Below are positions 2,926 through 32,071 of a stretch of 36,734 nucleotides of DNA, piece after piece. Each line of letters begins with the position of its first letter. The first letter of the stretch is position 1. Origin of the DNA: Marinilabiliales bacterium (GTDB taxonomy: Bacteria > Bacteroidota > Bacteroidia > Bacteroidales > BM520); assembly GCA_002869405.1 (NCBI GenBank), contig PKSY01000241.1, positions 1 through 36,734 of the forward strand, written 5' to 3'. The notes beneath the pieces were generated by a model that made no database searches, had not been told where the DNA came from, and saw only the letters and a program-made list of their open reading frames with translations. The position numbers and the translations under genes are program-made.

Positions 2926-3101
2926 ACCCCGAGCCGCGATGAATCGACGGCTCTCCAGGCCACATTATATTAAACGTTATGCCGGAGAGAAGGCCATTTA
3001 TGGTGTCTCGGGGTAATATGGAGATATCGCAACGAGAGCCCCATGGCGATGTTTCATGATTCGATTGAGCGCCCCACGGCGGTGGGGCTCTACCGGACAA
3101 C
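2926..3101 (+). repeat. Structured intergenic repeat, copy 1 (left flank of hipBA)
   Basis: Bases 2928-3084 recur at 4838-4994 with one difference in 157 (A2947 versus T4857). Bases 3071-3101 recur at 5014-5044. The element is made of nested hairpins. Hairpin one is GAGCCG-CGAT/ATCG-n-CGGCTC at 2931-2953 with one bulged base. Hairpin two is CTCTCC-a-GGC/GCCGGAGAG. Its outer arms ACCCCGAG (2926-2933) and CTCGGGGT (3007-3014) are complementary, like terminal inverted repeats. A second half has AGAGCCCCA (3035-3043) opposite TGGGGCTCT (3083-3091). A 78-codon frame at 2780-3016 crosses it but has no coding character. From 3102 to the hipB start there is no gene, only the candidate operator. Confidence 0.9.
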
Positions 3102-3169
3102 CCATCCCGGTAAATACGCACCGACGTGCGTATCTTAAGGTTCGGAGAACAAGGTTAGTAGAGATGATA

Positions 3170-3231
3170 AACAGATAATATTTTGTCTATATTGGAATTA
3201 TTCCGTAGATTTGGATAATATTTTATCTGTT
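3170..3231 (+). promoter_or_regulatory. Candidate hipBA operator region
   Basis: AACAGATAATATT (3170-3182) is mirrored by AATATTTTATCTGTT (3217-3231), allowing a 2-nt indel, and the second arm abuts the hipB start. Between them lies the 11-bp palindrome GGAATTATTCC (3194-3204). HipB proteins repress their own operon by binding inverted repeats, so either dyad could be the operator. This is inferred from symmetry and position only. Confidence 0.45.
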
Positions 3232-3513
3232 ATGGGAAAATTTAGTGTTAACAAATTGCCATCCGATGTTTTAATATCAACAGCATCAAATACTGCTGCC
3301 TTACGAAAGGAATTGAAACTTACGCAAGCCGACCTTTCAGTAAAATCCGGTGTTTCATATGGTAGCATAAAACGCTTTGAACGTACCGGCCGTATATCTT
3401 TTGAGTCTTTATTAAAAATAGCAGAAGCTTTAGAACGTCTTTCTGATTTCGAGGAATTACTTTTACCAAAAGGAAATAAAAAAGTTGAAGATTTATTTAA
3501 GTCATACCAGTAA
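3232..3513 (+). CDS. hipB: HipB-like XRE-family antitoxin
   Basis: A 93-aa helix-turn-helix protein. Residues ~20-75 carry the Cro/C1 fold (LRKELKLTQADLSVKSGVSY, then GSIKRFERTGRISFESLLKI). It is the expected antitoxin and autorepressor for the HipA kinase encoded next. ATG at 3232 is preferred: a TTG at 3211 is in frame but would add seven residues inside the putative operator. The stop codon shares one base with the hipA start (TAATG), so the two are translationally coupled. Unlike E. coli HipB, the C-terminal tail is short and charged (KKVEDLFKSYQ). The pair lies between two copies of a 157-bp repeat, which suggests horizontal mobility. Confidence 0.9.
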   Translation: MGKFSVNKLPSDVLISTASNTAALRKELKLTQADLSVKSGVSYGSIKRFERTGRISFESLLKIAEALERLSDFEELLLPKGNKKVEDLFKSYQ

Positions 3514-4772
3514 TGAAGATTAAACGTTATATAAATTCACCACAAGGGACTAAATCGCTGAATGTTTTTACTCAATTCTCAAAAGGTGAAATACTTGTTG
3601 GAAAACTGATTCTTGAAGATAGGTTAATCCACTTTAAGTATGATGATGAATTTTTAAACCTTCATTTAAACCTTTCTCCATTCAGATTAAAATTCAACAA
3701 TAGCATTCAGGTAGCTGATCCGGTTCCCTTTCGAGGGATTTTTGGTTTATTCGACGATTCACTTCCTGACGGTTGGGGTATGTTACTATTAAACAGGGCG
3801 CTTGAAAAAAGAGGGTTTTCGCTAAATGATATCAATATTTTGGACCAACTTGCATATGTGGGCGAAACGGGCAAGGGAGCGCTTATATACCGTCCGGCAA
3901 TTACCGAACCTGAAAACCTTGGCAATGAAATTAATATCGATCTCATTAAAACGGCAATGGATGATGTGTATGAAGGCACTACTCCGGAACTTATTGATGA
4001 ATTAATGTTCCTGGGAGGTTCTTCCGGTGGTGCAAGGCCAAAGGTAAATGTTGGTTATAATCATGAAAAGAATAAACTAATTCATGGCCGTTCTACTTTA
4101 CCTGATGGGTTCCAATACTGGATAGTAAAATTCCCCAGTTCTTCTGATCCAAAAGACATTGCCAATATTGAATTTGCTTATTACAAAATGGCCAAGGTTG
4201 CAGGAATCGAAATGAGCGAATCAATGCTCCTTGAAAGTGCAAAAGGAATGCAGGTATTTGCAACAAAACGTTTCGATAGAATTGGAAATAAACGACTACA
4301 TATGCATTCAATGGCCGGGCTTACTCATGATAATTTCAGAGTAAGCAATATCGATTACGGACATATTATTGATGTCGCATACCAGTTAGAAAAAAATGCA
4401 GCAGCCCGGGAAAAAGCTTTACGCAGAGCTGCTTTCAATGTATATAGCTATAATCTGGACGATCATTCCAAAAACTTCTCCTGGTTAATGGACGAAAATG
4501 GAAATTGGTCCATGTCTCCAGCCTATGATTTAACCTATTCATCAACTGCAATCAACGAACACAGTACCTTAGTGAACGGTGAAGGAGCAAATCCTGGCAG
4601 AAAACAACTTTTGGAATTAGCTGATATCTTTAGCATTAGAAATGCAAATAACATTATTAACCAGGTTCAGGAGGCAATTTCTTATTGGCCTGATTTCGCT
4701 GCTGATTGTGGTGTGAGTAAAGTTTCCAAGAATAGAATTCAAAAGAGACTTAAGTCGATTAGTGATAAATGA
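3513..4772 (+). CDS. hipA: HipA-type serine/threonine kinase toxin
   Basis: A full-length HipA of 419 aa with a fused N-terminal couple_hipA subdomain (~1-105) and a kinase domain. Signature motifs are intact: the glycine-rich GGSSGGARPKV at ~168-178, FATKRFDR at 249-256, HSMAGL at 265-270, the catalytic loop NLDDHSKNF at 314-322 (D316 aligns with the catalytic Asp), and the metal-binding PAYDLTYS at 336-343. Family members phosphorylate aminoacyl-tRNA synthetases (GltX for E. coli HipA), which halts translation and induces dormancy; the substrate here is unknown. Since all kinase motifs are present, the toxin is probably active. Codon use looks more AT-rich than the neighbouring core genes, which fits acquisition by transfer. 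Confidence 0.93.
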   Translation: MKIKRYINSPQGTKSLNVFTQFSKGEILVGKLILEDRLIHFKYDDEFLNLHLNLSPFRLKFNNSIQVADPVPFRGIFGLFDDSLPDGWGMLLLNRALEKRGFSLNDINILDQLAYVGETGKGALIYRPAITEPENLGNEINIDLIKTAMDDVYEGTTPELIDELMFLGGSSGGARPKVNVGYNHEKNKLIHGRSTLPDGFQYWIVKFPSSSDPKDIANIEFAYYKMAKVAGIEMSESMLLESAKGMQVFATKRFDRIGNKRLHMHSMAGLTHDNFRVSNIDYGHIIDVAYQLEKNAAAREKALRRAAFNVYSYNLDDHSKNFSWLMDENGNWSMSPAYDLTYSSTAINEHSTLVNGEGANPGRKQLLELADIFSIRNANNIINQVQEAISYWPDFAADCGVSKVSKNRIQKRLKSISDK

Positions 4773-4837
4773 TTTCCAATCAAGGAGCTTTTATGACTTC
4801 CTAAAACTCACAAAAACTCCAAATTAAACAGAGCACA

Positions 4838-5044
4838 CCCGAGCCGCGATGAATCGTCGGCTCTCCAGGCCACATTATATTAAACGTTATGCCGGAGAGA
4901 AGGCCATTTATGGTGTCTCGGGGTAATATGGAGATATCGCAACGAGAGCCCCATGGCGATGTTTCATGATTCGATTGAGCGCCCCACGGCGGTGTCATTC
5001 ATTTTATGTGAGAGCCCCACGGCGGTGGGGCTCTACCGGACAAC
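4838..5044 (+). repeat. Structured intergenic repeat, copy 2 (right flank of hipBA)
   Basis: A direct repeat of 2928-3101, in the same orientation as copy 1 and exactly 1,910 bp further on. It is identical over 156 of 157 bases to 4994. It then has a 33-bp extra segment (4995-5027) that duplicates GCCCCACGGCGGTG, before rejoining the copy-1 sequence to 5044. The extra segment creates a perfect 10-bp hairpin (AGAGCCCCAC-GGCG-GTGGGGCTCT, 5011-5034). The stretch 4773-5116 contains this repeat, a terminator and no gene. Confidence 0.9.
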
Positions 5045-5061: not shown

Positions 5062-5099
5062 AAAAAAAGGCTGTCCGGAATCCGAACAGCCTTTTTTTT
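5062..5099 (-). terminator. Bidirectional terminator after ackA
   Basis: AAAAAAAGGCTGT (5062-5074) pairs with ACAGCCTTTTTTT (5086-5098), and the loop holds a small inner CGG/CCG pair. A- and T-runs on both sides allow it to work for ackA on the minus strand and for anything reading through from hipA. Confidence 0.88.
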
Positions 5100-31970: not shown

Positions 31971-32000
31971 CCCCGAGCCGCGATAAATCGCCGGCTCTCC
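31971..32000 (+). repeat. Partial third copy of the hipBA-flanking repeat
   Basis: Thirty bases match 2927-2956 with two differences. One is in the loop (GA becomes AA) and one is at the bulged base (A/T in copies 1 and 2, C here), so all paired bases of hairpin GAGCCG-CGAT/ATCG-n-CGGCTC are kept. The similarity ends after CTCTCC. Confidence 0.8.
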
Positions 32001-32071
32001 GGAAGTTATTTTCCAACAGGTAAAAAATATATAACCAATCTTTCCCAAAATTGTTAAGCAACCAGACTTTC

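Follow-up and report, generated by a model that had tools for sequence, protein, structure and literature searches.

A 36,734-nucleotide stretch from a Marinilabiliales bacterium (GCA_002869405.1, contig PKSY01000241.1), which is the window of this analysis, carries repeated hairpins on both sides of a hipBA gene pair, raising the question of what these hairpins are and how they came to be dispersed. A first-pass annotation had described positions 2926-3101 as a structured repeat selected for folding, comparable to REP/BIME or MITE-like elements. Our analysis indicates that the element is very probably a REP/REPIN array moved as single-stranded DNA by a REP-associated tyrosine transposase (RAYT), and that the population either outlived its RAYT or has a RAYT lying outside the assembly. 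The features of the window are as follows.

2926-3014, no strand: REPIN, an inverted REP doublet with tags pointing inward
2927-2957, minus strand: family-1 REP, bulged type, TGGAGAGCCGTCGATTCATCGCGGCTCGGGG (R1, 53.7 bits; included in the R1 alignment)
2928-3084, plus strand: left copy of the 157-bp direct repeat
2983-3013, plus strand: family-1 REP, inverted partner, CGGAGAGAAGGCCATTTATGGTGTCTCGGGG (R1, 29.6 bits, E 1e-6; outside the model-building set)
3067-3093, minus strand: family-2 REP with GTAG tag and CGCC loop, GTAGAGCCCCACCGCCGTGGGGCGCTC
3110-3136, plus strand: family-2 REP, inverted partner, GTAAATACGCACCGACGTGCGTATCTT
3211-4772, plus strand: hipB-like gene (3211-3513) and hipA (3513-4772), between both repeat arrays
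4837-4867, minus strand: family-1 REP, bulged type
4838-4994, plus strand: right copy of the 157-bp direct repeat, ending within a family-2 REP (truncated REP at about 4977-4994)
4893-4923, plus strand: family-1 REP, inverted partner (R1 match; outside the model-building set)
5010-5036, minus strand: family-2 REP, complete, GTAGAGCCCCACCGCCGTGGGGCTCTC
31971-32001, minus strand: family-1 REP, solitary, with convergent ORFs on either side (R1 match)

Model R1 recognised five family-1 REPs in the window, and the left array was found to be two inverted doublets in succession, the first of family 1 and the second of family 2. The bulged hairpin reported earlier in three copies was present at 2927-2957, 4837-4867 and 31971-32001 with the loop and bulge variation described (bulge T, A and G, respectively, on the tag-first minus strand). 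The second hairpin and outer arms of that description also exist, but they are better explained by the first doublet, as its inner tags and its outer ends; the partner REP of this doublet lies at 2983-3013. Its "third half" is likewise present and represents a second, GTAG-tagged REP family, the second copy of which (3110-3136) carries the element beyond 3101. A separate feature at 5062-5098, between ackA and the hipBA side, resembles a bidirectional terminator: an 18-nt inverted repeat, nearly perfect, that carries A and T tracts.

Each REP consists of a 10-bp hairpin, frequently with a bulged base, whose foot carries a 5' tetranucleotide (GGAG or GTAG). The G[GT]AG tag had been passed over in the first-pass annotation, and it was found in nearly all copies as a conserved tetranucleotide at the 5' foot; conservation starts at the tag and, on the other side, ends no more than about 2 bases from the foot of the hairpin. 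A MITE of a DDE transposase, the other kind of element named in that annotation as MITE-like, would have terminal inverted repeats with a target-site duplication; what was seen instead is a hairpin tagged on one side.

The mismatch patterns used to collect the copies made no distinction between paired and unpaired positions, so covariation was not built into the collection. Two-sided compensating cells numbered 17 in A1, 24 in A2 and 16 in A5, values reached by 0 of 500 shuffles, although the REP copies are related by descent and the covarying cells are not all independent events. In the bulged type, three pairs had changed on both sides (C-G to A-T, G-C to A-T and G-C to C-G), and 95.7% of cells were paired compared with 20-54% for slid structures; the unbulged type and family 2 gave the same picture. 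The bulge was G, T, A or C across copies, and the second loop base was variable. The earlier statement that paired bases are kept while unpaired bases vary was therefore only partly borne out: bulge and second loop base do drift, but paired bases change genome-wide, mostly in compensating pairs, and the unpaired G.AG of the tag and the first T of the loop show little or no variation. The proposal of selection on folding is upheld by these compensatory pairs.

Such selection could also act on RNA, the hairpins being kept mainly for a role in 3' UTRs (mRNA stabilisation or transcription stop) and not as mobile DNA. The 176-nt segment folded with z = -4.1 as single-stranded RNA and z = -2.1 as DNA, and the window copies sit 3' of yebC and between convergent ORFs. 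In the unbulged type, moreover, G.T cells, 13 of them at a single pair, occurred on the tag strand and A.C cells were absent, consistent with folding of that strand; this bias, however, may be a single inherited variant and is also compatible with single-stranded DNA. No T-tract followed the window hairpins on inspection of the sequence, as an intrinsic terminator would require, and Rfam returned no match for the element. An RNA role also leaves aside the one-sided conservation of the tag, the tandem arrays and doublets, and the occurrence of the same palindromes within RAYT genes elsewhere, and we consider it improbable as the main explanation.

The distribution of copies across the genome points to a dispersed REP population. 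A 23-nt pattern allowing up to 3 mismatches gave 37 matches in 3.49 Mb, whereas the reversed control pattern gave 0, and a second pattern gave 35 matches genome-wide. Model R2 gave at least 81 matches at E up to 1 and at least about 70 distinct sites at E below 0.01, the site count being a lower bound from 150 scored candidates of 1375. The number of copies exceeds chance by a wide margin. Family 2 occupied about 20 sites among the loci examined, which had been picked for family 1. Only 5 of 61 REPs fell within long ORFs (at least 130 codons), whereas 82% of positions drawn at random from these loci did. The element accordingly has the properties of a REP, namely a palindrome of 20-65 nt with many dispersed, mostly extragenic copies. 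Inward-tagged doublets, the arrangement typical of REPINs and BIMEs, had centres 47-58 bp apart, and tandem arrays occurred at 42-43 bp. On contig C25 (L157, 885-1908), five family-2 REPs were clustered in about 1 kb, with a sixth at 3387. Neither the GGAG form nor family 2 had an exact copy on viral contigs.

A covariance search across 295 same-order genomes gave REP matches in 18, the source genome among them. The relevant RAYTs escape the Pfam Y1_Tnp model, so the transposase was sought with protein and profile searches; the best Y1_Tnp matches in relatives were of the IS200 type, lacked the source-genome REP and were rejected. RAYT genes of related genomes carried REP palindromes in or beside them, several in frame. 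Within same-order RAYT genes we found the palindromes GTAGAGACGC...GCGTCTCTAC, and the RAYT ORFs of genomes G060 and G010 (NHIHG ... YINTNP and YIQQNP) contained GTAGAGACGCGATTAATCGCGTCTC. The in-gene REP core of G060 differed from a source-genome copy at C336 by the tag only. In further RAYTs, related palindromes tagged GTAG lay within the gene itself, in most cases in the stretch that separates the HuH motif from the Tyr motif. The REP model matched 9 of 30 RAYT loci compared with 1 of 30 control loci. The NCBIfam REP-associated tyrosine transposase model matched the G060 and G010 proteins with E of about 1e-12, below the curated cut-off. In-gene palindromes are a mark of RAYT subclass 2.4 (PMC6006769), and the RAYTs of the relatives were provisionally assigned to this subclass on their motifs (NHIH, WQ, YIxNNP-like) and in-gene REPs. 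The REP/BIME reading offered earlier is thus sustained by the tag, the inverted doublets at set spacing, the avoidance of genes and the in-gene association with RAYTs in related genomes.

The RAYT that this reading led one to expect in the same genome was sought by sequence and by profile and was not detected. A search with a RAYT protein gave matches in 44 of 99 genomes, the source genome not among them, and a 17-member RAYT profile gave nothing significant there (best E 0.096). A cognate RAYT in the same genome, which characterises a subclass 2.4 REPtron, was not found; as the assembly is incomplete, we claim no REPtron for the source genome. The only Y1_Tnp match in the source genome was a protein on C26 (L031, 1486-1938). 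Its HVH motif is intact, but we rejected it as the cognate RAYT because it is IS200-like, has Thr at the catalytic Tyr column and lacks flanking palindromic repeats; its neighbour genes are unrelated. A Y1 match in G002, of the same genus, has the same ORF length and a near-equal score.

The REP population is probably orphaned, or its RAYT unassembled. As a sub-question, the population may still be active, with its RAYT located in sequence that the assembly lacks or at a contig break caused by repeats. The assembly comprises 348 contigs and is 96.55% complete, several REP copies are found no more than 500 bases from the end of a contig, and RAYTs are frequent among the genomes searched; on the other side stand the profile result above and the in-frame stops in the RAYT genes of G001 and G002, both of the same genus. 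We regard continuing activity as possible, though the less probable case. In E. coli, too, REPINs are retained in genomes that lack a RAYT (PMC8049555).

The tag itself is unusual. In family 1 it was GGAG in 33 of 38 and 29 of 40 copies and GTAG in 4 and 9, respectively; in family 2 it was GTAG, with the variants GTAA and GTAT. The sole same-genus REP outside the source genome had the tag GTAG. In a public scan permitting GTAG or GGAG, all of the at least 119 loci listed, mostly from Nostoc, carried GTAG, although this list may leave out the source genome and GGAG may occur elsewhere. A text search of the literature found no occurrence of the word GGAG in RAYT papers. Near-identical GTAG REP cores were also observed (L250-L368) in records of Nostoc, Bacteroidales, Chitinophaga, Gammaproteobacteria, Gracilibacteria, Parcubacteria and Delongbacteria. 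The guide tag might have switched from GTAG to GGAG in one lineage, accompanied by a corresponding change in an as yet unobserved RAYT, but we hold this to be rather unlikely. If it is true, one genome would hold two REP families read by transposases of different tags, and under the guide model of PMC8266576 GGAG should keep CT selection but alter CA selection.

The arrays also bracket hipBA, and they could in principle be the recombination ends of a hipBA cassette (integron-like or an integrated circle), with the hairpins as recombination sites. The flanking 157-bp repeats are 99% identical, direct and spaced 1910 bp apart, and hipB-hipA occupies the gap between yebC and ackA, genes that adjoin, with a short gap, in G003, G006 and G011. 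The GC content of hipBA was 36.8%, compared with 41.6% for the window. The best plasmid relatives of HipA (Persicobacter) were 47% identical. G001, of the same genus, offers no empty site because a different gene follows yebC. Against a cassette, about 70 other sites carry the hairpin and the full 157 bp is common to one pair only; the REP model had no match at five hipA loci of relatives, and no attC-like boxes were seen by eye. We therefore give this origin very little credence. The hipBA arrangement would be accounted for either by recombination between the repeats or by insertion into an array that was already there.

A REP/REPIN family mobilised in trans by a RAYT remains the most likely interpretation; we infer the movement in trans from the family, because the RAYT was sought in the source genome and not found. 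A RAYT would have attached to the single-stranded tag strand at the tag and hairpin, cut the REP DNA, and placed doublets between genes by copying or moving them; the REPs seen today would have outlasted it in the source genome, or it is not in the assembly. Points against this interpretation include the missing RAYT, the dominance of GGAG in place of the GT[AG]G of the literature, the GTAG tag of the sole same-genus REP outside the source genome and the shared descent of the covarying copies. A GGAG tag in most copies and no matching transposase gene in the assembly are what is mainly notable about the population. It extends tagged REPs, with an altered tag, to the source lineage. REPs seemingly outliving their transposase provide a natural test of REP persistence without a RAYT, and the changed tag one of how a guide tag can shift.

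Among known systems, the REPINs of Pseudomonas fluorescens (PMC3116915) share the inverted doublet as a unit and its extragenic location, whereas sequence and spacing differ. The E. coli REPs (Y, Z1, Z2) with their TnpAREP (PMC8266576) share a tag and a bulged imperfect palindrome arranged in BIMEs, but stem sequence, tag and RAYT class differ. The cyanobacterial GTAG REPs (GTAG-12, -15 and -16, PMC3733652) appear comparable, with GTAG-tagged palindromes of near-identical core in Nostoc and other genomes; copies sampled outside the source genome had GTAG only, whereas family 1 of the source is mostly GGAG. From the REP/REPIN/BIME elements of RAYT (TnpAREP) subclass 2.4 in Cyanobacteria and Bacteroidetes (PMC6006769), the present elements differ in that GGAG prevails over GT[AG]G, many copies are without the 3' half of the double foot, and the assembly has no RAYT. 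With that subclass they nevertheless share the 5' tetranucleotide at the hairpin foot, the long stem, the inverted doublets, the extragenic placement and related palindromes inside same-order RAYT genes.
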